A DNA stretch of 61,285 nucleotides, taken from positions 1 to 61,285 of the IMG/VR virus record IMGVR_UViG_3300025913_000007; one strand, written 5' to 3'. Shown piece by piece: positions 19,707 to 45,751 of the stretch. Each line of letters starts with the position of its first letter. Within the stretch, counting starts at the first letter, position 1. The translations under genes were made by a program, and so were the position numbers. Under the pieces are notes generated by a model. The model had not been told where the DNA came from, did not search any database, and was given only the letters and a program-made list of their open reading frames with translations. The DNA comes from a virus.

Positions 19707-19833
19707 GCGTAATATCCTCTATATACTCTTCGTATATCCTATACTCAGAGTATAACTAATCTAGATATATACTAGAAGATATATCTAGATCTACTCGTAC
19801 ATCCATGTACTCGTATATACAAGAAAAGAATCT
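19707..19833 (-). promoter_or_regulatory. AT-rich spacer with inverted repeat and possible promoter
   Basis: The only sizeable gap within the 14-28 kb gene block. It contains a perfect 11-bp inverted repeat TCTAGATATAT (19760-19770) / ATATATCTAGA (19779-19789). On the minus strand TTGTCT is followed after 16 bases by TATATA, a plausible sigma-70 promoter for the replication genes; the repeat lies just downstream, where an operator would act. Confidence 0.45.
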
Positions 19834-20025
19834 TTAGACAACTGAAAACGGTGAAAGTTTCCCAGTTCCTAATTCGTAGCTGAAAGCCTTTGAAATGGCT
19901 GAAGTTTTAGGTGCTGCTGCCTTCAACCACCACGCACAGTTCCACCTACTCAGGATCATGGGGAAAGGAGTCTTCCGGTTGAGAGACTCCCAAGCGAAAC
20001 GTACCGGATCAATTTCTACTTTCAT
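19834..20025 (-). CDS. Hypothetical protein (63 aa), end of amidoligase operon
   Basis: Start ATG 20025 overlaps the zinc-ribbon stop (ATGA). Product MKVEIDPVRFAWESL..., with Trp-rich WNCAWWLKAAAPK. Function unknown; last gene of the coupled operon before the AT-rich spacer. Confidence 0.6.
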   Translation of the reverse strand: MKVEIDPVRFAWESLNRKTPFPMILSRWNCAWWLKAAAPKTSAISKAFSYELGTGKLSPFSVV

Positions 20026-20159: not shown

Positions 20160-20407
20160 TTCTTGCTAATCTGCCTCTTGTAGACTCGCTCAAACTCACG
20201 AGTCGTATTGCCGGATTCCGTGATCAAAGTCCTTCCGTTACGGACGACTTTGTACGTCAAGTTGTACTCCCTCCAAGGATCTTCGTTCGGCTTTAACTCC
20301 GATTCCTCGCGAGCAAGGTCCTCCATAGCATTCCGAATCCAGTGCTGGTAGGAATCGTCATCGGGAAGTTCTTCGATATCAAAATCGAATTTAACTATGA
20401 CTTTCAT
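20156..20407 (-). CDS. Hypothetical protein (83 aa)
   Basis: Starts with a strand MKVIVKFDFDIEELPDDDSY and a helix (HWIRNAMEDLAREESEL), then a strand pair. It overlaps the GNAT-like gene and zinc-ribbon gene by 4 bases each. No family recognised. Confidence 0.6.
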   Translation of the reverse strand: MKVIVKFDFDIEELPDDDSYQHWIRNAMEDLAREESELKPNEDPWREYNLTYKVVRNGRTLITESGNTTREFERVYKRQISKK

Positions 20408-20880
20408 TGCAACTCCTTGAAAGCTATACCAATATCGTTATCGGTACGCTTATTACGGAAACAATGGAAAATCCTCCATTTGGCACGAGAAGCTCCGACA
20501 ACTTCGGGGATATTTCGCAATTGAGTCGTCATCAACATGACTCGATACCCAAGTGCAACAGCAGTGAGTTGCTTAATCTCGTGGAACCAGATGCCGATAT
20601 TATGCGCCCCTCGCCACCCTTCTTTTAGAAAAGACCCCGTGGATACTACAATTCCGCAGCATCCTGGCATAGGTTCGAGGGTAAATTGACCTATTTCTTC
20701 GTGAGGACTGCTTTGATGGGCCCAAAATACCCGGAAAGTCGTAGATTTATCGAGTCCTTTCTGTTGCAAATCTTCTTCGGGGATTTCCCAAGTGTAATCC
20801 CCGCTTCCAGACGTGAACTTGTGTTCGACGTACATCTTTCGAGTTACGCCGTCCGATTGCAATGCTGTTTCTACTCGCAC
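20404..20880 (-). CDS. GNAT-like acyltransferase-fold protein
   Basis: 158 residues with PGCCGIVVSTGSFLKEGWRG, GIWFHEIKQLTAVALGYRVMLMTTQLRNIPEV and AKWRIFHCFRNKRT, the strand-helix order of GNAT proteins including a C-terminal neighbour-substitution helix. The acetyl-CoA loop is degenerate. GNAT-fold proteins are recurrent partners of amidoligases, and aminoacyl-tRNA-dependent peptide ligases (Fem, L/F transferase) share the fold. Substrate unknown. Confidence 0.55.
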   Translation of the reverse strand: MRVETALQSDGVTRKMYVEHKFTSGSGDYTWEIPEEDLQQKGLDKSTTFRVFWAHQSSPHEEIGQFTLEPMPGCCGIVVSTGSFLKEGWRGAHNIGIWFHEIKQLTAVALGYRVMLMTTQLRNIPEVVGASRAKWRIFHCFRNKRTDNDIGIAFKELQ

Positions 20881-21770
20881 TACGCCTCCTTAACCTTATG
20901 TCTAGAGACTGTATTGTAGTTTTTATCCAATACAATCTCGGGTTCTTTGTCTTCGTCGATAGCTTCTTGAAGCTCTTCGACGACCTTCGCACTCATTTTC
21001 TTCCGTCGGAAACGCTTTTCTTCGGGGAAAACTCCCTCATTAAAGGCACGTTTGCAGGCTTCCAAGGGATCTTTAAGCTTCAAATCCTTGGCTACAGTCG
21101 CCTCCCACGCCTCTTTCGAGACGAATTGATCGTCTCCAAAGGCCTCAGCAGTGTCAATTGCCCTGGCCAGATGCTTTGGCGGTATCCAAAACCAGCCTTG
21201 ATTCAAGGAATAATTACCCATTGAACGATGGAGCGGGTTCTGGATGATAGGAGATTGCAGTACATATCCGATCTTGTTATCGATCAAGTACTTAGCAAAC
21301 TTACCGGTTCCCCCAATATTGACGTAGACATACCTGTCCAGGGGATATCCAGATTCTATTTTGATGGGATTTTTAGCATCCGATCCGTAGTTTATGGCGT
21401 CACTTAATACCCAAAGAGGAATATCCTTGCATCTATCGACAACTTCGTCGTATACGAGCTTCAGGAAATCTGGAGTATCTAACTTTTTGATTTCCCTTAG
21501 GAATTTTTCGACTAGAAGTACCTCCTCATCTGGAGCTACATAATAGTCGTTATATTTATCCCTCTTCCAAACTATAGCCGGTTCTTTAGAAGAATCGATA
21601 AGTTTGATGTTCTTACCGTCCCCTCCAGAATAATACCCTTGACCCCACGTAAGCTTTACTGAGCTAATTTGTCCGCAATGGCACCCAATACTCGATCCTG
21701 TAGTATTGTAGTTGACAGAAAAGCCTATATTTCGATTAATTTCTGGGAATTCTTTCCAGATAATAGCCAT
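20880..21770 (-). CDS. Unknown protein of the amidoligase operon (296 aa)
   Basis: No recognised family. The middle (VNIGGTGKFAKYLIDNKIGYVLQSPIIQNPLHRSMG ... NQGWFWIPPKHLARAID) looks globular; the C-terminus is a Lys/Glu-rich helix. One-base coupling to the GNAT-like gene and 2 bases from the ATP-grasp gene tie it to the same pathway. Confidence 0.6.
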   Translation of the reverse strand: MAIIWKEFPEINRNIGFSVNYNTTGSSIGCHCGQISSVKLTWGQGYYSGGDGKNIKLIDSSKEPAIVWKRDKYNDYYVAPDEEVLLVEKFLREIKKLDTPDFLKLVYDEVVDRCKDIPLWVLSDAINYGSDAKNPIKIESGYPLDRYVYVNIGGTGKFAKYLIDNKIGYVLQSPIIQNPLHRSMGNYSLNQGWFWIPPKHLARAIDTAEAFGDDQFVSKEAWEATVAKDLKLKDPLEACKRAFNEGVFPEEKRFRRKKMSAKVVEELQEAIDEDKEPEIVLDKNYNTVSRHKVKEA

Positions 21771-21772
21771 TA

Positions 21773-22660
21773 TCAGACCGCCTTCTCGTTCTTTAACTCT
21801 AGAATTGCGTTCTTATACGCTTCGATAGTCACAGTATTCTCGAGCCCCGGACCGGTATTAACCTCACAAATGGCAAAGCTCTTTAGAGCGCGAGTACCAC
21901 TTTCAGATGGGGGATTGAGTATTGCAAGCACGTCAACAGCACCAAAATGCAGATTGAGGCCCACAATAAGCTTACAACAAGCTCCTTCCACTGCCGCACG
22001 ATCAGCATCAGTAAGCTGTATCGAACCGTGGCAATGAACCCAACCGTTGCTAAGGCTGCGAATAAGACTATCACTACCAGGGCGAGCATCGGGACCACCT
22101 TTTAGTTTCTTCTGTGTAAAATCAATTACTTTTCCATTGAAGACGTGGACTCGGAACTCGTGAGTTTTGGGGTAGTATCGAGTGTAGAGGGGCGCTTGTA
22201 CGAGCTGCTCAGCGGTTGTTGCCTTGACAATGCCTCGTCCAGACGAGCTGTCCAACTGGGTTCGGCAGATGACGGGCTTTCCCTTTTCAATCCATTTGGC
22301 AGCGGTGTCCTTTGAATCTGTCCACTTGAGCAGAGGTACTCCATCAATTCCGGATGCGTGTTGAAAGAAAGAAAGCTTGTTAACTGCCTTTTTAACATGT
22401 TCAGAAAGATTGATGTAGCGTGGCGTAAGTCGAAAGCGCGGGTCGTCAAGCCAACGTGGATGTAGAGTTGATCCCCAGTTAAGAACCAGCGGACTTGAAT
22501 TCCCTCGGAAGTAAGGCCTTCTCCGCGAGTACCTTGGAGGCAGATCGCTTCTCCATCGACGACTGCCAAGATCGGTAGCGAGTCGTCGAGCGCCACTAGA
22601 ACCTCTATCCGCATAAACCACCAGATCGTAATAGGTAAATTTGTCTTGACTAAGCTTCAT
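21773..22660 (-). CDS. ATP-grasp ligase
   Basis: 295 residues from ATG 22660 (a TTG at 22675 is the alternative). KPVICRTQLDSSSGRGIVKATT forms the ATP-grasp phosphate-loop region; TRYYPKTHEFRVHVFNGKVIDFTQKKLK, HFGAVDVLAIL and CEVNTGPGLENTVTIEAYK supply the later lid, Mg-binding Asp/Glu and Asn motifs. Such enzymes form amide or peptide bonds through acyl phosphate. Here it is next to amidoligases and a glutamine amidotransferase, pointing to peptide or amide modification. Confidence 0.85.
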   Translation of the reverse strand: MKLSQDKFTYYDLVVYADRGSSGARRLATDLGSRRWRSDLPPRYSRRRPYFRGNSSPLVLNWGSTLHPRWLDDPRFRLTPRYINLSEHVKKAVNKLSFFQHASGIDGVPLLKWTDSKDTAAKWIEKGKPVICRTQLDSSSGRGIVKATTAEQLVQAPLYTRYYPKTHEFRVHVFNGKVIDFTQKKLKGGPDARPGSDSLIRSLSNGWVHCHGSIQLTDADRAAVEGACCKLIVGLNLHFGAVDVLAILNPPSESGTRALKSFAICEVNTGPGLENTVTIEAYKNAILELKNEKAV

Positions 22661-23483
22661 GGTATTTAACCCCAAAGAATTTAGCAGCCTGGGGAATATT
22701 AGATACTACCTGTACTGTCTCTTCCTTAGGGTTTGACACCGTGATCGCTGAATTAGGCGTAGTTGCAGGATACGCCCTCGCACGTCCCGCCATAATGTCC
22801 TGTACAGTAGGATGTACGGTGGGAGTGGTGATAGTAGGCTCTACTACCTTCGGAGGGAGGCGAATCGTAGGCTTCAGTCCCGTCATATCTCGAAGATATT
22901 TGTACTCTCCAAGAGCTTCTCCAGAAGCCTTATTGATCAGGACATAAGCATTCTTAGCCTCATCTCGGCGAAGAGTGTAGTCCCCTTTTCCATCTGCAAT
23001 CTTGATCTCATTATGACTCATGTTTGCCTCGAATCGTCCTACTTCCACTCCTTTCCCGAACCCCAACCACTTCACGGTAGGAGACATTATTCCCCGCCAC
23101 ACACCTGAAATGATCACTTTATCCTCCTTGAAATCCAAAACCTTGTCCCTCGTAAATACATAAGTCCACACTTTACCGTGAGGTTTTACATCTACTTGGA
23201 TTCGAGTATAGAAATTGGCTTTAACCCCTTCCAGAATATCCATCTTGAATATCTGGTCCCAAGTACACTCATACACCTCCCCAGCAAGCATACTAAAGCG
23301 CTCTTCCGTACAGATAGCTGGGAAATGACCGAGATGGAACATGATTCCTGGCAAAGCGGCCGTGCCGAGATCCTTAGCCTCTCGTAAATGGCGGTCGTGA
23401 TTTCCGTATCCTTTCTTCAAAGTGCCATAAACAAAGACCTTTTGAGGCTCATCCCTTGCCGGAAAGATTTCAAGAGACATCAA
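22650..23483 (-). CDS. Gamma-glutamyl cyclotransferase-like (AIG2/GGCT) protein
   Basis: 277 residues. The N-terminal about 115 residues match the fold: VFVYGTLKKGYGNHDRHL (binding loop), then LAGEVYECTWDQIFKMDILEGVKANFY with the catalytic Glu. The C-terminal half is an added beta-rich piece (VIISGVWRGIMSPTVKW, DYTLRRDEAKNAYVLINK) and a Pro/Thr linker. Family members cleave gamma-glutamyl amides; in amidoligase clusters they are proposed to edit or reverse the linkage. Confidence 0.8.
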   Translation of the reverse strand: MMSLEIFPARDEPQKVFVYGTLKKGYGNHDRHLREAKDLGTAALPGIMFHLGHFPAICTEERFSMLAGEVYECTWDQIFKMDILEGVKANFYTRIQVDVKPHGKVWTYVFTRDKVLDFKEDKVIISGVWRGIMSPTVKWLGFGKGVEVGRFEANMSHNEIKIADGKGDYTLRRDEAKNAYVLINKASGEALGEYKYLRDMTGLKPTIRLPPKVVEPTITTPTVHPTVQDIMAGRARAYPATTPNSAITVSNPKEETVQVVSNIPQAAKFFGVKYHEA

Positions 23484-25051
23484 TGAGTCCCCATTTTAGC
23501 TATCTGAGAAGACCCTAATAGATCTAAAATCCCAGGACTTGTAGAACAATTCAAACAGACAGGGGCATCTCCTACCCAGACAAGATCGTCAATATCTTTG
23601 GGGTAGATATCCTGGCAGCAGTTTGCACATCCGTCCTGGGACAATTCATAGAATCGAGCCATACTGATTCTATTTCCATTTGGACCCGGAACGATCCTAT
23701 CGATGGAATTCGATACGGAATTTCGGTGATTCTCCCTAGCCAATTTCTCCTTTTCTTCCAGTTGCTGCTTCCGGCGTTCAATAAACCTGTCCATTTTGTC
23801 CGACAGTACACCTACAACGCGAACATCATCCTTGGACCCGATACGTGTATTGACACAATCGACTAGGATAACCTTATAGCGCCACGCCATTTCGAATTGA
23901 TCCCATCGAATATTGAGCACTTCGACCAGTTGTCCAGTCTTTCGTATCTCAGCTACGACCGTCCCCAAACCCTCCTGATTCTTGTATTTAACCCAAGTCT
24001 TGGGTATACAAGCTCGCATCTCTCGGTATCGGATACCTAGCTTTTTCAGCTCAGCCGTGGCCCGTTGTAGCCGTTTAGGAGAAGTAGGAACTCCGTGCTG
24101 TTTCGCGTCTTTCTGGCGTTCTTTCGATAGCTCTTGACGAATCTCATCCAGCTCAGACGTCTCGTTCTGATTTGTATCCTTCGATGTAGCCAGACTCTCC
24201 AGCTCGGATAATTCTTCGTCCGTCAGATCCAGTTTTGACGTGGATGTTTCGGGCGCTTGGAGCGAGAGTGGACCATGCTGGCCAATAGTCCTCGTATTCC
24301 CACGACTGCTCTGCCGTCCCTGGCTTTTGGCAAAAGGGGTTTTGGAGTACTCCCTCAAATCCTTGAGAGAGAATTTATACCAGACCATAGGTTTGGGAAA
24401 CATGATGCCGGAGTCTTCATCGATCTCGATATCCTTCATGAGATGCAGAAGAGCTGTGAACTCCGATGCGAAGTACATCGTATTCTCTTTGGCTGCATAC
24501 GCCATGTGCATTGGGCGTTCGTTGTTCCGAGCAATATTCAGCGTCTCAAGCTCGGAGTTCCACCAGACGAAGCAAAACCCACCATCTACCGATTCGAGAG
24601 TATCCATCTCTCCGTTCTGATCCATCGCGCAAGCGACATGCGCGCTGTCTACTTGACAGTCTGCCTTTTGAGCAGCTCCCTTGAGATCATAAGTGTTCCG
24701 AATGTGCCCATTATGGACAAGAGTAATCTTACCGTATTGAAATGGGTGAGCGTTATGATCCACGATATTGCCACGACCAGTAGTAGCAGCACGATTATGG
24801 CCGATAACAACAGGATATTTTTCAATATCATTGAGATATTTCTCCACACTGTGGAGCTGGATGAAGTCCCGACCGTTCACGGCCCGCTTGTACACAACCG
24901 GTGCAGCCTTAGCAGTTTCTCCCACTAAAGCAATACCTGTACTTTCCCATCCACGCCAAGAATCGATGTCCAGACCGATCTTCATAAAATTGAGCCGTTC
25001 ACTTCGACTCTGCATCTTCATAGTAGATGCTGTTCCGACGATTCCACACAT
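23480..25051 (-). CDS. Class II glutamine amidotransferase with C-terminal zinc ribbon
   Basis: 523 residues. MCGIVGTAST supplies the catalytic Cys2 after Met removal; VIGHNRAATTGRGNIVDHNAHPF and VHNGHIRN are the glutaminase-site motifs of GlmS/PurF/AsnB-type domains; LESVDGGFCFVWWN follows. The second half is charged and helical, ending in a zinc ribbon (CANCCQDI ... CLNC). It would release ammonia from glutamine, presumably for a partner ligase in this operon since no synthetase domain is fused. It overlaps the GGCT gene by 4 bases. Confidence 0.9.
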   Translation of the reverse strand: MCGIVGTASTMKMQSRSERLNFMKIGLDIDSWRGWESTGIALVGETAKAAPVVYKRAVNGRDFIQLHSVEKYLNDIEKYPVVIGHNRAATTGRGNIVDHNAHPFQYGKITLVHNGHIRNTYDLKGAAQKADCQVDSAHVACAMDQNGEMDTLESVDGGFCFVWWNSELETLNIARNNERPMHMAYAAKENTMYFASEFTALLHLMKDIEIDEDSGIMFPKPMVWYKFSLKDLREYSKTPFAKSQGRQSSRGNTRTIGQHGPLSLQAPETSTSKLDLTDEELSELESLATSKDTNQNETSELDEIRQELSKERQKDAKQHGVPTSPKRLQRATAELKKLGIRYREMRACIPKTWVKYKNQEGLGTVVAEIRKTGQLVEVLNIRWDQFEMAWRYKVILVDCVNTRIGSKDDVRVVGVLSDKMDRFIERRKQQLEEKEKLARENHRNSVSNSIDRIVPGPNGNRISMARFYELSQDGCANCCQDIYPKDIDDLVWVGDAPVCLNCSTSPGILDLLGSSQIAKMGTH

Positions 25052-25068
25052 TATTAACTATTCTCCGA

Positions 25069-26415
25069 TTATCGACGAGGATTGCGAGGGTTCAAACGAC
25101 CGGCCAGACGAGCAAGCTCATCCAGTTCTCGGGCCCTATTTCTCCGTACATTCTCTCGAAGCTCCATATTCCTTCGGGCTCGAACGACAGGCTCTTCTAT
25201 CTGATCAGCAGCCATTCCTGGAGGTGCAAGGGGTGGCGGGGCAATTGGTTCTGGGTTAAAGACGGCCGCCTCTCTATTACCAATCCACCCCCAATCATTG
25301 CCCGCATTGGGGACCTGCGCAGTAGCAACCTGCATCTCTACCTGATTTGGTGCTACAGCCGGTTCTGGGAGGACCCATCGAGGAGGTTCCGGATTCGGCG
25401 CCTCATCGTCTATGTCGTCGATATCTAGATCGTCAAAATCTGCTTCCTCATAAGATTTCTGTTTGGATACGGGCTTACTGGATTTGATCCACTTGATGAA
25501 TCCGGCATTTTCTCCTTTTGGGAAACTGGTTTGTACCCACTGCAACCCATTGCACCCATGGACTGCCAGGTCTCTGGCTGTGGGCAGACCTAGGGTACGG
25601 AACTCTTCTTCCGAAGCTGCTGTGGCCAACTTTTGCGCCAGATCCGGTAGGAACACGAACCCGAACAGCTCTTGAATCTCCATTCGTTCCAGCATTCGGA
25701 CAACAGCACCGTCGCTCTGTGGCAACTTGTAGGCTGCAGCCTTTAGAGACATAACGATATTTATCCAGTCTACAATTCGCTGGAGATCGTGGGTAGTCTG
25801 AAGTTGTCGGAATTCTACCGATCCGAACTTATGCAGAGCTTGCAGATTATACCCTGCGTACCTCTGAAAATGTTCTGATACTTCTAAGGCAGACTGACTG
25901 CCCTCATCCACAGCGTCCAAGTGGGCGGCACTCAAGATCCTACAAGCACCTTGCAGCGCTTGATCCGCTCGGTACAAAGGGATACAGAAGTGAGATGAGG
26001 CCCTACCATCACCTATCCAATGATAGAGGATTGGTTCTAATGCTGCATAAAGCAGAGACATCCCCGCAAATTGAGGTACGGTAAGATCTCTTACGTCGAG
26101 ATGTACGTGTATGCCAGTCCTTTTGGTGCATTTCCATTTAGAATCCTTGGCATGTGAAACGAGCCACTCAAGAGCGTTGTACGCATCAGAGCCAAAGATA
26201 GGGTTGGAAAAAACGTACTCTGCGCCGTTGTCCTTAAGACTCCCTTCCTCGTGGTAAGTCCAAAAGTCCGCAAAGGAGTGAACTGGGAGGTTTCGGTTGA
26301 GGACTCCTTCATACTCGTGCTCCAATCCTATAAAACAACTAGGAAGAACCCATCTAGAATCTGCCTTGTACGACGGCCGTCCCGTCGACTTCCCAAGAAT
26401 ACGAGCTAAGCTCAT
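25069..26415 (-). CDS. Amidoligase (glutamate-cysteine ligase-like)
   Basis: 448 residues. The N-terminal about 240 residues carry FIGLEHEYEGVL (ExE metal site), AEYVFSNPIFG, TGIHVHLDVRDL and FGSVEFRQLQ, the ATP/metal core of COOH-NH2 ligases related to glutamine synthetase and GCS. The C-terminal third is a Pro/Asp-rich linker and a charged helix (RRNMELRENVRRNRARELDELARLA). It should join an amine to a carboxylate; acceptor unknown. Confidence 0.85.
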   Translation of the reverse strand: MSLARILGKSTGRPSYKADSRWVLPSCFIGLEHEYEGVLNRNLPVHSFADFWTYHEEGSLKDNGAEYVFSNPIFGSDAYNALEWLVSHAKDSKWKCTKRTGIHVHLDVRDLTVPQFAGMSLLYAALEPILYHWIGDGRASSHFCIPLYRADQALQGACRILSAAHLDAVDEGSQSALEVSEHFQRYAGYNLQALHKFGSVEFRQLQTTHDLQRIVDWINIVMSLKAAAYKLPQSDGAVVRMLERMEIQELFGFVFLPDLAQKLATAASEEEFRTLGLPTARDLAVHGCNGLQWVQTSFPKGENAGFIKWIKSSKPVSKQKSYEEADFDDLDIDDIDDEAPNPEPPRWVLPEPAVAPNQVEMQVATAQVPNAGNDWGWIGNREAAVFNPEPIAPPPLAPPGMAADQIEEPVVRARRNMELRENVRRNRARELDELARLAGRLNPRNPRR

Positions 26416-27089
26416 AGAATAGTTACCTTGGCACCTGTCTGCCGAGCAATCTCGGACTCGTAATCAGCATACTGCTGAGTAATGCAAATCGTCGCATAAT
26501 CGATGACATACCCAACTGTCCACCGCTTATACGCCAATAGAGGATGTTTGGATTTTGGAAGAGTGTAGACCCCAAGTGTTCTAGAGATAGGAACGCCTAC
26601 CGCCTCGCCCGAATCAAGAGTGTCCAAAGCTTGGCTTAAGGTTTTATATTCTGGATTAAACGAATGCCATATCCACGAATATTCATCTCGACCCGAACGA
26701 ACGTATTTGTTCCGTATGGACCAGTTGTTGAACTCGTGAATGGTGATATCTCGGGGCCGGTATCCTTTCTTAGGCGTCCGAGGCGTTGAGTAAGATCCGT
26801 ATATCAACGTAGGTCCATCTACGTACATTCCGATAGGAGGGAGACCAAAATCAGCATGTTTAAGCAATTCATTCCAGCTTACTCTGGTATTTTCCCCTAC
26901 CGAGAAACCCCCCTCACTCAATTTAGAAAGAGATCTTAGCTGAACATTGCCGTCTGCGCGCAGAGCCCCGACGTATTCTGGGACTACGAACTCAGCGTCA
27001 GTGGGATGCCACCCTATCCAGGCATTGGCATAGTAACGGGAGAAATCATTGATATTCTCCACATCACACGCACGTTGTATGTTGGTCAT
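26412..27089 (-). CDS. Unknown protein between two amidoligases (225 aa)
   Basis: No family recognised. Beta-rich with many Tyr/Trp (YVGALRADGNVQLRSLSKL, MYVDGPTLIYGSYSTPRTPKKGYRPRDI). It overlaps one amidoligase gene by 4 bases and is 3 bases from the other, so it likely acts in the same pathway, perhaps as a substrate carrier or scaffold. Confidence 0.6.
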   Translation of the reverse strand: MTNIQRACDVENINDFSRYYANAWIGWHPTDAEFVVPEYVGALRADGNVQLRSLSKLSEGGFSVGENTRVSWNELLKHADFGLPPIGMYVDGPTLIYGSYSTPRTPKKGYRPRDITIHEFNNWSIRNKYVRSGRDEYSWIWHSFNPEYKTLSQALDTLDSGEAVGVPISRTLGVYTLPKSKHPLLAYKRWTVGYVIDYATICITQQYADYESEIARQTGAKVTIL

Positions 27090-27092
27090 GTA

Positions 27093-28079
27093 CTACCGAT
27101 AGCAAGTAGAGATAGGAAGTCCGATATGATCCCGAGCAAAAACAACGATTTCCTCCGCCAATTTGTGGTTTTCCGTCTTGATAGCGTGCTGGACATCGCC
27201 CCAATCGATTTTGGTGTAGGCGTCGTTCAGCAAGCCTGTGTTTGTATTTGCAGTCTGGCCTAGCGAGAGGGCTTGTTGAGCCAAAATTGCCAGATTTCCA
27301 GACTCTCGGAACTTCGAATCGAGCCAGAAGTTCGAGAGAGTTCGATACTCGATCCCGTATGGCTTTTTACGATAGAGTCCCGGCTGCCCGTAGAACATAC
27401 GGCGCATCTTCTGTTTATCATGCCGAAGTGATGGCAGCGCTACGTACAAGTCCATGAATTGGACGAATACGTGCTCCGGCATTCTTTTTGTGTTGTACTG
27501 TACGTGGATATGTCCACCACAGAACCTGTGATTACCGAAATGAGCCGCATTGAAAGGGGCCCGTTCCTGCTGACCTTCAGGAGCATACGCATCCATATCG
27601 GACAAACAGCCAATCTGCATAGACTGTGGATTGGATGCGATCTCATCTGCCGAGAATGTGTGCATTACTTGGCAAGTGGATCTGTAATCCTTTGGGCCTA
27701 GAATATTTGTATCGATAATATTCAAAGCCTTACCCACAGCATCACAGAATGGGCTGTAGTTTTTGTATGCAGGAATATTAAATTCCAGCATGACGTTATC
27801 TTCTTGAATTGCGTAATTCCCTCTACGACTCGGTGCAGCAGGAGCTTCATTTATCTCTCCATTTTCCGGAAGTAAGATCCCTCGAAGCGCAGGACGACGA
27901 AACCGACCATCCTCACGCTCTGCACCGTAAACGGCCTCGATCAAATTGTCGATGATGAGAGGATTTTCTTTAGTACCCCCTACATGACCACAAACCGGGA
28001 TGATCTTGTTGTCTTTCATCTGTCGGATAAACAACTCAGGATCAGCTCCAATACGCGGACCATGATCTACATTGGACAT
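27093..28079 (-). CDS. COOH-NH2 ligase type 2 (phiEco32-type amidoligase)
   Basis: 328 residues from ATG 28079 (AGAGGTAA upstream; the longer frame to 28133 overlaps the pilin-like gene). Motifs: IGADPELFI (acidic metal site), ENVMLEFNIP-type segment (QEDNVMLEFNIPAY), HRFCGGHIHVQYN and YGIEYRTLSNFWL. This is the second, distinct amidoligase of the operon and resembles the phiEco32 group. It follows the prepilin-like gene directly. Confidence 0.85.
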   Translation of the reverse strand: MSNVDHGPRIGADPELFIRQMKDNKIIPVCGHVGGTKENPLIIDNLIEAVYGAEREDGRFRRPALRGILLPENGEINEAPAAPSRRGNYAIQEDNVMLEFNIPAYKNYSPFCDAVGKALNIIDTNILGPKDYRSTCQVMHTFSADEIASNPQSMQIGCLSDMDAYAPEGQQERAPFNAAHFGNHRFCGGHIHVQYNTKRMPEHVFVQFMDLYVALPSLRHDKQKMRRMFYGQPGLYRKKPYGIEYRTLSNFWLDSKFRESGNLAILAQQALSLGQTANTNTGLLNDAYTKIDWGDVQHAIKTENHKLAEEIVVFARDHIGLPISTCYR

Positions 28080-28087
28080 AATTACCT

Positions 28088-28285
28088 CTACCGAGTATAC
28101 GCAACAGTCAGTTCTGGGTGCATCTGCTTCCATTTATATGCACACTGATAGTGGGGTTCGTGCTGAACACACTCCACCATGAAGTTGTGTTCTTCCTTTC
28201 CGAACAAATTGCCAATAACCACAGCGGCAAATATTCCTATAATTAGGATGACAATAATAAGCTCAATCAAGGTAAATCCCTTCAT
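28088..28285 (-). CDS. Type IV prepilin-like mini-protein
   Basis: 65 residues. MKG/FTLIELIIVILIIGIFAA is a full type III (prepilin) signal: short basic leader, Gly before the cleavage point, Phe+1, Glu+5 and a 20-residue hydrophobic helix. The rest is only about 36 residues with two cysteines (C39, C48) able to form a disulfide, much shorter than a real pilin head. It could be processed by host PilD and enter type IV pili or type II secretion pseudopili, or stay as a membrane anchor. It heads the amidoligase operon and ends 8 bases before the next ATG. Confidence 0.8.
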   Translation of the reverse strand: MKGFTLIELIIVILIIGIFAAVVIGNLFGKEEHNFMVECVQHEPHYQCAYKWKQMHPELTVAYTR

Positions 28286-28569
28286 TAGTTCATCCTTCGA
28301 GTAGGATCACCCTTCCTGTTGAAGTCCTTCTTCGGGTGAGGATAGAAGGCTGCAAGTCCTGCGTATACAGGGATAGGATCGTCATCTTTGTATACGTAGG
28401 TGCGACACGGATCGCTATCTTGATCGAACTCCCTCTGGAGCCGATCTGCCGTAGCTTGTGCGTGAGCCAAAGTGTCACAGCCCACGGACACTCGCTCAAT
28501 GAACCCTCCGCCAGATTTAGCCTCGATGACTTTTACGTTTACCGACGCTTGTTGCTTTGTTTTCGACAT
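28285..28569 (-). CDS. Hypothetical protein (94 aa)
   Basis: A single alpha/beta domain (ASVNVKVIEAKSGGGFIERVSVGCDTLAHAQATADRLQREF) with basic C-terminus. Its stop overlaps the prepilin-like start by one base. Function unknown. Confidence 0.65.
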   Translation of the reverse strand: MSKTKQQASVNVKVIEAKSGGGFIERVSVGCDTLAHAQATADRLQREFDQDSDPCRTYVYKDDDPIPVYAGLAAFYPHPKKDFNRKGDPTRRMN

Positions 28570-28577
28570 GTTTATCC

Positions 28578-28751
28578 TTACTCTTCAATTCGATCTGGAT
28601 GTCTATCTGAAAGCTCGTTCAGAGTCTCGAAGAACTCTTTCTTCCATTGTTCGACGGTCAACTTCTCTATCCGTCTTTGAATCTCTTTGGGATATATCTT
28701 TGGGGAGTACGACTTCGACGCGGGTGGCAACGCAGGAGAACTCTCGCTCAT
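28578..28751 (-). CDS. Small helical protein (57 aa)
   Basis: From ATG 28751 the product is MSESSPALPPASK..., then an amphipathic helix IYPKEIQRRIEKLTVEQWKKEFFETLNELSDRH. A longer frame to 28784 exists. It overlaps most of the exported 28603-28887 frame in another reading frame. Confidence 0.55.
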   Translation of the reverse strand: MSESSPALPPASKSYSPKIYPKEIQRRIEKLTVEQWKKEFFETLNELSDRHPDRIEE

Positions 28752-28887
28752 AACGTTCATAACAGCAAACACCTCGATCATCACAGACGTGGGTAATAAC
28801 CAGGGAAGATTGCGCAGAAGGTGGACGAACTAGCCACACTGCACAACACAAAAGAAAGAAACCACAGGCACAGATAAAACCTTTCAC
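28603..28887 (-). CDS. Exported cysteine-containing protein (94 aa)
   Basis: MKGFICACGFFLLCCAVWLV is a signal-like hydrophobic segment; the mature part has a Cys set (VCDDRGVCCYERYEREFSC) and a charged helix. Coupled to the upstream membrane gene by an ATGA overlap. The second half overlaps the 57-residue gene, resembling nested spanin-type arrangements, but no lipobox is clear. Confidence 0.5.
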   Translation of the reverse strand: MKGFICACGFFLLCCAVWLVRPPSAQSSLVITHVCDDRGVCCYERYEREFSCVATRVEVVLPKDISQRDSKTDREVDRRTMEERVLRDSERAFR

Positions 28888-29180
28888 AGGCGATTCCTGG
28901 GCCTAGGGTCGACCCCAGCCTTAGCCAGTAAATCACAAATCTGTTCACCTATTAGATGTAGGAGATGCCAAAATAAGTACAAAAGTGCGAAAGTAGCTAG
29001 TAACATCCCAGGTATGAAAACCATACCTAGAATCCAGTCATAGGGACGGTTGCCTGTGTTATGTTGGAACCAAATCCCCACAGGTATATCCACGGCTAAA
29101 AACAAGAGGGCTCCGAAGATACCTATTCCTTGTTCGATCCATTCTCTCCGGGGTTCTCTTTTACGATTTGACCATGCCAT
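28884..29180 (-). CDS. Two-pass membrane protein (98 aa)
   Basis: Two hydrophobic segments (GIFGALLFLAVDIPVGIWF and ILGMVFIPGMLLATFALLYLF) between a basic N-terminus (NRKREPRREW) and a polar C-terminus. Function unknown. Confidence 0.7.
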   Translation of the reverse strand: MAWSNRKREPRREWIEQGIGIFGALLFLAVDIPVGIWFQHNTGNRPYDWILGMVFIPGMLLATFALLYLFWHLLHLIGEQICDLLAKAGVDPRPRNRL

Positions 29181-29252: not shown

Positions 29253-30092
29253 CTACTTCGGCTGGATATTGAGGAACGGCATAGCTCCGCCGTTCACGCT
29301 GGGAAGCGTCCCATTCCACTTCTCAATAGCCCGTAGCTGAATGAGACCGGGATTCTCTTTGAGAGCATCACCCTCAATCTTCAGAGCCTGGGCACGGTTC
29401 TGCGCCATAATCAGAGCTGCCTTACCGTCACCTTCGGCTTTGGCAATCTCTTTCTGGGCTTCTGCCTCAGTCTGAGCTACCTCGTTATGGCGACGCTCGG
29501 CCATCTGAGTAGCTGCGATCTTGGCATTGATACCCGCCTCCACTTGAGGCGGAAGCTTCATAGCCCCAATCAGATACACCTTCTCGACAACCAATCCAAT
29601 GGGCGCCACTTGGAGCTTGACTCGATCCTGAACAGCGGCGACTAAATCAGCCTTCTTATTCCCGTAAATATCTTCAATAGCCATCGTAGAGCCAATCTCT
29701 ACGAAAGCATCTCGCACCATGTTGTGGATATAGACATCGGTGATCTCGTCGATACCTTTACGGTACGTCTGGAACAATGTAGACACCATGTCCGGCTGTA
29801 CGTGGTAGGTGATACCAAGGGCCGTAGCTACAGCCATTCCCTCCTTGGACTGAAAGCTGATGTACTCGTTGTTCGCGGCCGTCCAAGTACGAGTCTGGGT
29901 AAACGTCGGGAACAGGTACAGGTCTTGGTTGAAGGTCAGCCAATAGCGTCCTGGACCCACTTGCTGGGCTTGTACTCCCTTATCTGTTCCATACAGATCT
30001 ACCTTGACTCCCACGTTCCCAACGGGAACTTTCTCGTAGCTGCATCCAGCCAGAACCAGAAGAAAACCAAATACGGCAAATAGACGTTTCAT
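29253..30092 (-). CDS. SPFH/Band-7 (prohibitin/HflC-like) lipoprotein
   Basis: 279 residues. A lipoprotein signal ends in VLAGC; then EKVPVGNVGVKVDLYG...GPGRYWLTFNQDLYLFPTF starts the SPFH domain, with YHVQPDMVSTLFQTYRKG and VRDAFVEIGSTMAIEDIYGN inside it. A long Ala/Glu-rich coiled coil (AQTEAEAQKEIAKAEGDGKAALI) follows, as in stomatin/HflC proteins. It should oligomerise at the membrane. Lipid anchoring in place of a transmembrane helix is notable. Possible roles: shielding FtsH/HflKC-type proteolysis, membrane stabilisation or superinfection control. Confidence 0.85.
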   Translation of the reverse strand: MKRLFAVFGFLLVLAGCSYEKVPVGNVGVKVDLYGTDKGVQAQQVGPGRYWLTFNQDLYLFPTFTQTRTWTAANNEYISFQSKEGMAVATALGITYHVQPDMVSTLFQTYRKGIDEITDVYIHNMVRDAFVEIGSTMAIEDIYGNKKADLVAAVQDRVKLQVAPIGLVVEKVYLIGAMKLPPQVEAGINAKIAATQMAERRHNEVAQTEAEAQKEIAKAEGDGKAALIMAQNRAQALKIEGDALKENPGLIQLRAIEKWNGTLPSVNGGAMPFLNIQPK

Positions 30093-30390: not shown

Positions 30391-30467
30391 TGGAGGGTAG
30401 GGTGGGATTCGAACCCACGAAGTAGCCGGATCACAACCGACGGCCCTTACCTCCGGGCGACCTACCC
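30391..30467 (-). tRNA. tRNA-His (GTG)
   Basis: Canonical cloverleaf with CCA encoded: acceptor GGGTAGG/CCTACCC, D-stem GCCC/GGGC with GG in the loop, anticodon arm GTCGG-TTGTGAT-CCGGC (GTG), T-arm GTGGG-TTCGAAT-CCCAC. The base before the acceptor is T and the discriminator is T, so the usual G(-1):C73 histidine identity pair is absent. Confidence 0.9.
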
Positions 30468-30617: not shown

Positions 30618-31124
30618 TTATCGAGGTATTACGACCCTATTGAAGTAGGTCGCTATACCATGTTGTGCAAAAGTAGCGCACATGATTAGCGCCTCCCTTG
30701 CACTAGTGGTGGTGAGCATAGGCAACAGACCATCCGTTACTTCATACGCCACTTTGGCGTTACTGATGAACAGCTCCGGCTGTTCGGAATAGTCCATCCA
30801 AGCACAATGGTCACCAAACCACTCAAAAAACCGTCTATTGCATGGCGGTGGCAGCGTATTATTAGTTACTGGTGCGTGCTGCGATCTTGAACTGGTACGC
30901 TTCCGGTTCGAATAATCTTTCCTTGCAATCTTCGCAAAAAGGAGCTGAGTTTTCCTCTTGGTAGAAACTACCTTCCCATTAATCAGCTCGTCAATCGAAT
31001 GCGGATTACCGCTTTTTTTAGGATTAGGCCTGCCTCCAAATAGTTTTGCTACGTCTACATATTCGCCGGTCTTTATACCATGCGAAAAACCAGGCACGTC
31101 CAGCCTGGGCTTTTTATTATGCAT
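30618..31124 (-). CDS. Unknown protein behind a consensus promoter (168 aa)
   Basis: Basic N-terminal half (RPNPKKSGNPHSIDELINGK, TKRKTQLLFAKIARKDYSNRKRTSSRSQ) and a C-terminal helical half with Cys residues (FEWFGDHCAWMDYSEQ, REALIMCATFAQHGIATYF). No family recognised. It is the only gene between a perfect sigma-70 promoter and a strong terminator, so it is probably made early and in quantity; possible host-takeover protein. Confidence 0.65.
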   Translation of the reverse strand: MHNKKPRLDVPGFSHGIKTGEYVDVAKLFGGRPNPKKSGNPHSIDELINGKVVSTKRKTQLLFAKIARKDYSNRKRTSSRSQHAPVTNNTLPPPCNRRFFEWFGDHCAWMDYSEQPELFISNAKVAYEVTDGLLPMLTTTSAREALIMCATFAQHGIATYFNRVVIPR

Positions 31125-31361: not shown

Positions 31362-31390
31362 ATTATAGCAAAGCTAGGAGCACTTGTCAA
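31362..31390 (-). promoter_or_regulatory. Consensus sigma-70 promoter
   Basis: Minus strand TTGACA (31390-31385), 17-base spacer, TATAAT (31367-31362): a perfect match at both hexamers and spacing. It points toward 31124 and would give strong immediate transcription by host RNA polymerase. Confidence 0.9.
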
Positions 31391-31404: not shown

Positions 31405-32859
31405 TCAAAGCTTTAGGTTACGCTTAACCTCATCCCAGGTCCACTTCTTTATAAAGCGACCGTCTCGCCAGACAGGCTGCAACATATTGCCCTGTGAGAG
31501 ATTGGCCTGGGTTTTGATATCCAATCCATCAACTAAAGACAGATGTCCGTTTACGTATAATACCGCTAGACGACCACGAGCAGATCGTTTAGTTCCGCTA
31601 TCCGTGATTGGATCCTTGAAGAGAGATCGTTCCTGCCCGTTAACCTTGGCCCATGTAGCTTTGATTGCAAATCCGTGGGTGTCACGTGTGACGTGCTGGT
31701 ATGTATAGCTACCAATTCCGAACACGATATTTGGGGAAGCGAACCTTTTAGCAGCCAATCTTTCACATATCTGTCTAGCTCGTTCCTCCGTGATGGAGTC
31801 CCCATATATGGTCCCGATGTGCGAGTCGAGCTGCTTGAATCCTTTATCATTTATTGTTCCCCCGAATATATCCCACAGAAGTTCTACGACACCTTTCCGG
31901 GCTGGACTGTTATACGGCTGAGACTCATCACCGGTAATAATAAGAACAGGATCACCCGAGTCTGGGCGTATGACGAGCTTGCCGTCTCGTTTCATGATCT
32001 CTTTCTTCAAGGTTGGGAGGGTTTGTGTAATCACGTACCACAAATCCCAAGTATCAGATACTACTGATACTACACCCTTAGGATACAGACCGAGGAGCCG
32101 TCTGAAAGTGGTCCGTTCTGTTTCTCTCCCTCCTAGACACATGACCATGTGTTCCGTTGCCGGAACGCTGCCTCCGATAAGCCCTTCTCCATTGTAGCAA
32201 TCTCGGAGGAGCTTAATAGCCGGTATTGTATCGGTGCCCCGGAAGGACAATAGGTGCCCAATACCGCTAAGTACGGCTGCTTCTGGAGACCCCATACCTC
32301 GGAAGCTGAAATCATGTCCTTGCCATTGGGTGAATTCTGGATCCCCATGGGTCACCTCACACCAATGGTCGAGCAGTTTGCGGTAGCGGTAAGCTGTGGT
32401 TGCACTGGTGCAGGGTAGCCAGAGACGGGAGGATACGAGGGTTTCGAGATATCCTGGGACCCAAGCGAACTCTGGGTGAGTGTTCTCGATAGTGAACATG
32501 GGAATCTTATACGGCACTCGAGTTCCTTCTGGCAGTGCGCAGAATTCGAGTGGAAGATATCCCAAGTCATGTAAAGCTCCGATGTGGCGCACATCAAGCC
32601 CAGGACCAAGGCAATTGTCTGCCATTTTCTGGTAGTCATAGAGAACATCGCTCCGATTTCGACTGAAAAATGTTCTATTGGCCAAGTCCGTCAAGTCGTA
32701 CTTGAGAACTGCTTGAAGTCCAAGAAACACCACAGAATCGTTTCCTTCGATCCTAGGTGCCCTGGCTGTGAAGTTCTCATAGATGTACTCCGTTCCCGGA
32801 ACCATCTGGGCTCGATGGCCTGTTTTGTAGAAATCCGTAGCTTGAATGAAATCCAGCAT
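31405..32859 (-). CDS. Nicotinamide phosphoribosyltransferase-like protein (Nampt/Namat)
   Basis: 484 residues from ATG 32859 (MLDFIQATDFYKTGHRAQM). Family motifs: HDFSFRGMGSPEAAVLSG, FRGTDTIPAIKLLRD, VPATEHMVMCLGGRETERT, SVVSDTWDLWYVIT, LVIRPDSGDPV and FGIGSYTYQHVTRDTHGFAIK. It should make NMN from nicotinamide and PRPP, or, if it is a Namat as in phage NARP1 systems, NAD from nicotinamide and ADP-ribose pyrophosphate. The partner kinase is the next gene upstream. No NMN adenylyltransferase is present. Confidence 0.9.
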   Translation of the reverse strand: MLDFIQATDFYKTGHRAQMVPGTEYIYENFTARAPRIEGNDSVVFLGLQAVLKYDLTDLANRTFFSRNRSDVLYDYQKMADNCLGPGLDVRHIGALHDLGYLPLEFCALPEGTRVPYKIPMFTIENTHPEFAWVPGYLETLVSSRLWLPCTSATTAYRYRKLLDHWCEVTHGDPEFTQWQGHDFSFRGMGSPEAAVLSGIGHLLSFRGTDTIPAIKLLRDCYNGEGLIGGSVPATEHMVMCLGGRETERTTFRRLLGLYPKGVVSVVSDTWDLWYVITQTLPTLKKEIMKRDGKLVIRPDSGDPVLIITGDESQPYNSPARKGVVELLWDIFGGTINDKGFKQLDSHIGTIYGDSITEERARQICERLAAKRFASPNIVFGIGSYTYQHVTRDTHGFAIKATWAKVNGQERSLFKDPITDSGTKRSARGRLAVLYVNGHLSLVDGLDIKTQANLSQGNMLQPVWRDGRFIKKWTWDEVKRNLKL

Positions 32860-32861
32860 AA

Positions 32862-33725
32862 TCAAGTACTCCCGAGTAATACGGCGAATTTGAGAAGATT
32901 GCCAAGAGGTAGAACGGTTAAGCGAGGGAAATGCTCTCGTGTATCCACACATCGACTGTCTGTAGTCGTTATGTGTGTGTACTTTGCATCTATGTTATTC
33001 AATCCCTTGGAAAAAATACCATGGGATACAACAAGTTCTAGGTGGCTATTAAAACTGTATTTATCCTTATTAAATGCATCAGCCAGAAGATTGAATGTTC
33101 CACCCCCATCGCAGATATCATCTACTACGATATAGCGCCCTTCTTCCGGCAGAGCTGGCATGTAGTACTCTGAGAGTTCTCCAGTTTTAGCGTCGCGTAC
33201 TTTACTACACACAAGCAGCTCGGCCTTTGGATAAAACCAGTTCCGAAAGGTAGTAGCTCTTACGACTGCCCCGTTATCTGGTGCAATTATCCCTTTGACA
33301 TTGTTCAGAGGTGCTGGAACAACCAAATGGTGCATATTCAATATTTTTGGACCATTTGAATCCGGCCAGATTGTATTTAATACATCTGAATGCGGGTCGA
33401 ATACGTAATATCGGATTGTAGATCTCCATAGAAGGCTGATCATCATTTTTATTGTCATAGGATATTTCCCTTTATCCTCAGGCTTGACTTTATCTTGTCG
33501 AGCCCCCGGAAAATACATAATTCCGGCATGGACCTGTACGTCCTTATTGGCGGATAGAGCATCTAAAATACAGGCTGCGATTCCCACATCATTCCAAGTA
33601 CGAAGCTTGAAATAGATAACTACTAGTCCCTCGAATTTAGGCAGTTTTACGTGGGGCTCCCCACCTGGGAAAAACATCGTCTCAATTCCGGCAATCGAAT
33701 ATCGATCACTATCAATGAAAATCAT
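32862..33725 (-). CDS. Ribose-phosphate pyrophosphokinase-like protein (Prs/Adps)
   Basis: 287 residues from ATG 33725, which overlaps the upstream stop (ATGA). Motifs: FPGGEPHVKLP, YFPGARQDKVKPEDKG, VFDPHSDVLN (DxH metal site), IIAPDNGAVVRAT and the PRPP loop RYIVVDDICDGGGTFNLLA. Bacterial Prs makes PRPP; the diverged phage paralogue Adps makes ADP-ribose pyrophosphate from ADP-ribose. Pairing with the Nampt-like gene is the gene order of NARP1. It is shorter than typical Prs (about 315). Confidence 0.9.
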   Translation of the reverse strand: MIFIDSDRYSIAGIETMFFPGGEPHVKLPKFEGLVVIYFKLRTWNDVGIAACILDALSANKDVQVHAGIMYFPGARQDKVKPEDKGKYPMTIKMMISLLWRSTIRYYVFDPHSDVLNTIWPDSNGPKILNMHHLVVPAPLNNVKGIIAPDNGAVVRATTFRNWFYPKAELLVCSKVRDAKTGELSEYYMPALPEEGRYIVVDDICDGGGTFNLLADAFNKDKYSFNSHLELVVSHGIFSKGLNNIDAKYTHITTTDSRCVDTREHFPRLTVLPLGNLLKFAVLLGST

Positions 33726-33958
33726 ATATTTACTCCCGTTTGTAGGTGTACGTACATTTCGGCTTGCGCTGCGTGCCATAACTGCTCCGCAGGCTTCAAC
33801 TTATCCCAACCAAATACCGGCGATCGTTCCAAGCACACAGCTTGATGCCAAGCATGTAGAAGCATGGAAGCTACCGTGGATTGGCCTCGAAAATGGTATT
33901 GGGACTGAAAAGGAAATAGAACAGCAGCTCGGGCTGCGATACGAGCGTCTCTCGTCAT
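33722..33958 (-). CDS. Small protein of the NAD operon (78 aa)
   Basis: From ATG 33958 (ATGA overlap upstream) MTRDARIAARAAVLFPFQSQYHFRGQ..., helical, with WDKLKPAEQLWHAAQAEMYVHL. No family recognised. Confidence 0.6.
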   Translation of the reverse strand: MTRDARIAARAAVLFPFQSQYHFRGQSTVASMLLHAWHQAVCLERSPVFGWDKLKPAEQLWHAAQAEMYVHLQTGVNI

Positions 33959-45569: not shown

Positions 45570-45751
45570 TGCACTCAAACCCTAGACCTTACAATAATTG
45601 TAGAAATGTGTGGCCGTGCAAACTCCAGTACGGCGGCAGTGAGTGCGATTGTCCTGTAGCTCAGGCGGTAGAGCGGCTCCCTGTTAAGGAGCGGGTCCCA
45701 GGTTCGATCCCTGGCGGGACAGCCAATAAAAGAGAGAAGTATGCCGACTAA
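45569..45751 (+). CDS. Cys-rich small protein overlapping tRNA-Asn (60 aa)
   Basis: TAATG-coupled start with AAGGGA upstream. NCRNVWPCKLQYGGSECDCPV looks like a small Cys-rich domain. The reading frame then runs through the tRNA gene, so the last half is dictated by tRNA sequence. Bases 45571-45577 and 45640-45646 also pair (GCACTCA/TGAGTGC). Confidence 0.4.
   Translation: MHSNPRPYNNCRNVWPCKLQYGGSECDCPVAQAVERLPVKERVPGSIPGGTANKREKYAD
45650..45725 (+). tRNA. tRNA-Asn (GTT)
   Basis: Acceptor TGTCCTG/CGGGACA, D-stem GCTC/GAGC with GG in the loop, anticodon arm GCTCC-CTGTTAA-GGAGC (GTT), T-arm CCAGG-TTCGATC-CCTGG, discriminator G and encoded CCA. All canonical positions present. Confidence 0.95.

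Follow-up and report, generated by a model that had tools for sequence, protein, structure and literature searches.

A phage-encoded mini-prepilin with a conserved pilin signal and a recurrent SPFH neighbour

The gene at positions 28088-28285 of the window, by which we mean the whole viral stretch of 61,285 nucleotides analysed here, encodes a mini-prepilin, that is, a complete prepilin signal and hydrophobic pilin helix followed by a short tail and no globular head. The signal is conserved among orthologues of such phage proteins, and mini-prepilin genes recurrently lie close to genes for SPFH (Band_7) lipoproteins, a linkage that is new here and went unnoticed in the first-pass annotation of this DNA. 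We tentatively propose that the window gene encodes a headless pilin that is processed by the host, partners the phage SPFH protein and probably touches the pilin-assembly platform.

Three observations establish that 28088-28285, on the minus strand, is a real gene. First, a Shine-Dalgarno-like AAGGA (28293-28297, minus strand) stands 7 bases before the ATG. Second, this ATG overlaps, as TAATG, the stop of an upstream 94-aa gene (28285-28569, minus strand), which has a homologue in the relative L014/L161. Third, a homologue with 47% identity is encoded on an unrelated phage contig, L002. The mini-prepilin directly follows the upstream gene inside a long minus-strand array, and its earlier placement as the first gene of an amidoligase operon is therefore incorrect.

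The protein translated from this open reading frame, MKGFTLIELIIVILIIGIFAAVVIGNLFGKEEHNFMVECVQHEPHYQCAYKWKQMHPELTVAYTR, has 65 aa and an N-terminus that reads MK-G/FTLIEL...; its assignment is based on this translation, on the Pfam profile PF07963 and on the homologue in L002. The profile matches residues 2-23 with 27.9 bits against a cut-off of 21.2 (E 1.6e-6), and the protein is its sole match within the 61,285-base record (E 1.7e-7). As the first-pass annotation had recognised, the signal is complete, with Gly at -1, Phe at +1, Glu at +5 (codon 28262-28264; this and the following coordinates all refer to the minus strand) and a hydrophobic helix that hydropathy places at residues 4-28 (28202-28276) and that AlphaFold models over residues 6-39 with a pLDDT of about 90. 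A prepilin peptidase is predicted to cut between Gly3 and Phe4, removing the leader Met-Lys-Gly (28277-28285) and leaving a mature protein of 62 aa; judging from these features, pilin-like processing of the window protein is likely. The remainder after the helix (28091-28201), predicted to be periplasmic, comprises about 36 residues and does contain the two cysteines previously pointed out, Cys39 and Cys48, spaced C-x8-C. A globular beta-sheet head is absent from the AlphaFold model (mean pLDDT 82), which consists of helices only, namely, the long helix (6-39) and, after a turn, a second one (45-55). A fold search of this model against the PDB, made uninformative by the nature of a helical 65-mer, gave no match.

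With type IV pilins and type II secretion (T2SS) pseudopilins, the window protein shares the class III signal, F+1, E+5 and the hydrophobic helix, but the likeness is limited to the first 25-30 residues, and the protein differs from them in having no globular head, in being phage-encoded and in having no recognised pilus machinery nearby. Comparison with solved PDB chains by sequence places it closest to Geobacter geopilin, GspG and PilA, with alignment over the helix only. The remark that the protein is far too small for a pilin head thus stands in so far as the head is missing, but size is a misleading argument, since mature geopilin PilA-N of Geobacter (PDB 2m7g) has 61 aa against 62 aa here. 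This near-equality, together with geopilin being the best match among solved chains and with the retention of E+5, speaks for a working minor pilin, which would become part of the pili or pseudopili of the host in the manner of a short Geobacter-type pilin and would alter their function (e.g. retraction or phage binding) rather than block them. However, geopilin needs a partner head protein, of which none is seen here, pilus genes other than the mini-prepilin were not recognised in the window, phage records usually hold a single prepilin, and the helix-only versions described below cannot expose a surface, so that we consider a minor pilin unlikely.

Conservation of the signal was evaluated in three orthologue sets, from Vibrio (6), Nankokuvirus (4) and Aeromonas (6) phages, in all of which G-1, F+1 and E+5 are invariant; even where Ile+4 is replaced by Thr, as in Nankokuvirus (GFTLTE), these three residues are kept. 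Loss of the Gly/Phe/Glu+5 motif among homologues, which the first-pass annotation had raised as a way in which its pilin reading could fail, did not occur. In pilins, Gly-1 is needed for cleavage, and Glu+5 serves docking in assembly rather than membrane anchoring. At the codon level, the N-terminal parts of the KVP40 and nt-1 proteins differ by 15 synonymous versus 3 non-synonymous changes, as compared with 9 versus 9 in the tail, whereas in the Nankokuvirus set the constraint on the signal is not stronger than that on the tail. The first 17 codons of the window gene and its L002 homologue show 10 synonymous versus 2 non-synonymous differences, and the helix diverges beyond them. Moreover, versions reduced to the helix, of 27-29 residues, persist in the Aeromonas phages Aeh1, Ah1, PX29 and phiAS5.

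The tails differ widely and are unrelated to each other. That of the window protein shares the pattern K..H.FM..C...P..C...WK with L002, and at the sensitivity used no further member of this tail family was found in viral contigs, in 84,980 bacterial and archaeal genomes or in named phages; nor did the window tail occur on other anchors in those genomes or in named phages. An even number of cysteines is nevertheless the rule, being found in 23 of 24 mini-prepilin tails (two or four in 16, none in 7), which fits a disulfide-forming periplasmic location as far as can be judged from sequence. A second tail family, RCI.GYKF...QI.DE.GKGV.C, is common to Synechococcus phage BUCT-ZZ01 and contigs L037, L062 and L103. 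A Cys-paired tail of this BUCT-ZZ01/L062 type also occurs in Acidovorax phage ACP17 (L143, 372-617) on an ordinary, non-prepilin membrane anchor; in ACP17 as a whole, no prepilin match was obtained. By sequence, the prepilin anchor has been exchanged at least once, and because of ACP17 it appears that this anchor is not always required.

These tails bring in the main rival to our proposal, nearly as likely as a mechanism with pilin-platform interference, according to which the prepilin signal would be an interchangeable tether for a small Cys-paired periplasmic tail, and it is this tail that would do the work, with the phage SPFH protein as its binding partner; host pili would play no part. 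ACP17 points in this direction, as does the presence of two or four cysteines in most tails despite their lack of relationship. A mere tether, however, would not account for versions that have no tail to carry (Aeh1, Ah1, phiAS5), nor for Glu+5, which is never lost in the orthologue sets although it is costly in a membrane helix and unneeded for anchoring, nor for the stronger constraint on signal than on tail between KVP40 and nt-1.

Restriction to certain hosts also argues against a tether that has nothing to do with pili. One full mini-prepilin query against 50,697 named phage records gave 166 records, a rough count, since a few entries are long pilins or come from bacterial contigs or prophages, distributed over phages of Synechococcus (50), Pseudomonas (47), Aeromonas (25), Vibrio (24), Acinetobacter (8), Xanthomonas (3), Delftia (2) and a few others. 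The genera named here possess type IV pili, type II secretion or both. Escherichia phages, in which the phage collection is rich, contribute 0 of the 166.

As sequences, phage mini-prepilins are not new, and the previous statement that no phage mini-pilin of this kind had been described needs to be narrowed accordingly: it stands for function, as no functional study of phage mini-prepilins was found in the literature searched, but not for sequences and annotation. The 28-aa Aeromonas phage protein Aeh1p044 bears the GenBank note 'similar to N-terminal sequence of bacterial secretion protein pilin', KVP40.0030 is annotated via PF00114, and genes of ValKK3 and PAK_P3 are noted as PulG-like. At least six PHROGs have a prepilin N-terminus, namely, phrog_13280 (KVP40.0030), phrog_10597 (Nankokuvirus orf026), phrog_11263, phrog_3433 ('pilin'), phrog_27437 and phrog_11596. 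Several of these catalogued families are small, there is usually one per genome, and all have the same prepilin N-terminus as the window protein, which matches phrog_13280 over residues 2-34 (E 1.1e-9) and five further prepilin-type families. The phrog_13280 match ends at position 36 of the 67 in the profile and leaves the tail uncovered; indeed, the window tail matches neither Aeh1p044 nor any of the six families, and L002 is its sole tail homologue found. In Aeromonas phage phiAS5 (L145, about 1003-1086) and in avDM12-TAAL (L179, about 316-402), a helix-only mini-prepilin gene of 27-28 aa is unannotated in GenBank. Another candidate, gp011 of Pseudomonas phage F10 (similar to PhiW-14 g119 according to GenBank), was rejected as a mini-prepilin, being a long prepilin in the tail module. 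This 210-aa prepilin-type protein (L172, 5680-6312) is encoded between the genes for the major tail protein and the tape measure, a site typical for accessory ('moron') genes, and has matches in JBD68 and LESphi3.

In named phages, mini-prepilin genes are surrounded by genes that belong to metabolism or have no known function, rather than by lysis genes. This weighs against a lysis helper, i.e. a small holin- or spanin-like membrane protein, as could otherwise be imagined for a small single-TM protein with a periplasmic tail; a weak spanin-profile match (phrog_13, E 0.018) was obtained for L002 only. The related idea of a vestigial captured pilin fragment has against it the conserved signal, which argues against decay. 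To either of these we attach very little probability.

The linkage with SPFH genes was assessed as co-occurrence within 3 kb on the same strand, which is found in 17 of the 27 records having both genes. Counting one record per cluster, 15 of 20 phage clusters are linked against 2.5 expected at random placement (P about 2e-11), a figure to be read with the 3 kb limit having been chosen after examples were seen, with clusters of similar phages grouped by eye and with contigs that may be incomplete; when confined to contigs of at least 35 kb, linkage is found in 12 of 17 versus 1.6 expected. Among viral contigs taken from one and the same pattern scan, an SPFH gene was present in 12 of 18 mini-prepilin contigs versus 2 of 33 control contigs (P 8e-6), the latter being those with long prepilin ORFs of 120 residues or more. 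Some pairs are tight: the genes overlap as ATGA in G029 and, in reversed order, in G035, and they are separated by about 2 bp between matches in G008, 32 bp in PhiXhv-15 and 69 bp between matches in Aes012. SPFH/Band_7 genes beside mini-prepilins were seen in loci G008, G029, G035, Aes012, AhP_Mru1, PhiXhv-15 and L161. In the last of these, the mini-prepilin (19796-20020) overlaps the end of an SPFH-like gene that encodes a lipoprotein of 128 aa, directly before the primase, and the window is without such a pair at the syntenic place.

The window itself has an SPFH/Band_7 lipoprotein gene (29253-30092, minus strand; PF01145, E 5.9e-24; phrog_200, E 2e-78; PF08139 lipobox) within 3 kb on the same strand, 968 bp from the mini-prepilin. 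Several genes lie between the two, including those for a 94-aa Cys-rich protein with a signal-like N-terminus (28603-28887, minus strand; a similar gene, with an SCVAT motif, is present in L161) and for a 98-aa membrane protein recognised by translation and hydropathy (28884-29180, minus strand), as well as a terminator-like hairpin 3' of the SPFH gene (29240-29213, minus strand; 11 pairs, 9 of them G-C, then T-rich), which is the nearest such hairpin upstream of the mini-prepilin. Phage SPFH/Band_7 lipoproteins (phrog_200) are recurrent neighbours of mini-prepilins but separate proteins. Counting against our proposal, besides the distance and the hairpin in the window, the relative L163 has an SPFH gene and no mini-prepilin, and in Nankokuvirus, Schizotequatrovirus and Aeh1-like phages the two genes are present but widely separated. 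SPFH genes that do not adjoin a mini-prepilin tend to have other small membrane proteins nearby, namely, varied TM proteins and lipoproteins, and for this reason mini-prepilins may represent one among several kinds of SPFH partner, which is in favour of an interchangeable tether.

The gene next downstream of the mini-prepilin, on the same strand, encodes a COOH-NH2 ligase (27093-28079, minus strand; PF14395, phrog_3815), and an Amidoligase_2 (25069-26415, minus strand; PF12224) follows as context. From this adjacency it had been suggested that the mini-prepilin is a membrane-anchored peptide substrate of the downstream amidoligase/ATP-grasp enzymes. Partnership with the ligase is not supported, as the presence of mini-prepilins and that of ligases are uncorrelated across phages. 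First, a clear homologue of the adjacent ligase is present in three viral contigs, L161 (57% identity, best segment), L162 and L163 (46%), none of which has a mini-prepilin at the place beside the ligase, and the records of L162 and L163 (53-58 kb) contain no prepilin anywhere. Second, the mini-prepilin of L161 is a different one, of 74 aa with an unrelated tail (CRMQWAESG...GCKIS), encoded behind the SPFH-like gene and far from the ligases. Third, PF14395 was found, among 22 records tested, in the window and two of its relatives only, and in 0 of 18 other mini-prepilin records. We conclude from the three contigs that related phages gain and lose mini-prepilins independently of ligases; on this co-occurrence, and in particular since PF14395 is in none of the 18 records, we rejected the substrate reading as a general function, and we hold it to be highly improbable for the window protein. 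The L161 tail was not found on other anchors in named phages, and a scan with a small membrane protein of L161 matched its own contig only. The exact pattern GFTLIE has no match in the L014 record, which has a GFTLVE mini-prepilin elsewhere.

The steps of the mechanism that we tentatively prefer, a headless pilin working with SPFH, would be as follows. The host prepilin peptidase (PilD/PppA type) would remove Met-Lys-Gly; the helix would remain in the inner membrane and the tail would extend into the periplasm, where a disulfide between Cys39 and Cys48 would close it; and the mini-prepilin would work with the SPFH lipoprotein of the phage, for which a periplasmic orientation is likewise predicted. 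We further propose that the helix engages the pilin-handling platform of the host (PilC/GspF and the pilin pool), because Glu+5, a residue for docking in assembly and not for anchoring, is strictly kept. Assembly of the type IV pilus or of type II secretion might then be blocked or redirected during infection, with a limit on superinfection or on adsorption to debris as a possible gain for the phage. A precedent, by analogy, for a small phage membrane protein acting on the pilin-assembly platform is PfsE of Pf phage, an inner-membrane protein with a cytoplasmic N-terminus that binds PilC and stops twitching (PMC8764522). Tip/gp05 of D3112 and Aqs1 of DMS3 both bind PilB (PMC8764522; review PMC11436027). 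These three are small phage proteins like the window protein, but none of them is described with a prepilin signal in PMC8764522 or PMC11436027.

The pilin mimicry put forward in the first-pass annotation is, as far as sequence comparison goes, plausible and partly supported. The conserved signal, the helix-only versions and the lack of Escherichia phages among the survey records agree with it, whereas the plain anchor of ACP17 and the SPFH linkage tell against a pure poison of assembly; interference with pili by the window protein is possible. Thus, it is tempting to speculate, although we find the wider claim rather doubtful, that phages of pilus-bearing bacteria carry a recurrent and undescribed cassette, in which an SPFH lipoprotein and a host-matured headless prepilin would jointly capture or disable the pilin-assembly platform. 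Type IV pili and type II secretion matter both as major receptors for phages and for the fitness of the host; the known phage pilus inhibitors are few and mutually unrelated. If phages do encode a mimic of the pilin signal matured by the host peptidase, many 'hypothetical proteins' of Vibrio, Aeromonas, Pseudomonas, Xanthomonas and cyanobacterial phages would gain a testable function, and the linkage gives phage SPFH proteins a candidate partner.

Other features of the window deserve mention. The ligase genes belong to a cluster at 20404-28079 (minus strand) of COOH-NH2 ligase, Amidoligase_2, class II glutamine amidotransferase, gamma-glutamyl cyclotransferase-like and RimK/ATP-grasp-like genes, which similar clusters resemble in L161 and, partly, in L164-L166. 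Overlapping NAMPT-like and PRPP-synthetase-like genes (31405-33779, minus strand) form a pair that we take to resemble phage NAD+ salvage or reconstitution pathways. A sigma-70 promoter that matches the consensus perfectly (12/12; TTGACA, 17 nt, TATAAT, extended -10) lies at 31362-31390 (minus strand), upstream of the gene at 30618-31124, in a region otherwise poorer in promoter-like sites than shuffled sequence. Finally, the window carries a tRNA-His (GTG) at 30391-30467 (minus strand) and a tRNA-Asn (GTT) at 45650-45725 (plus strand).
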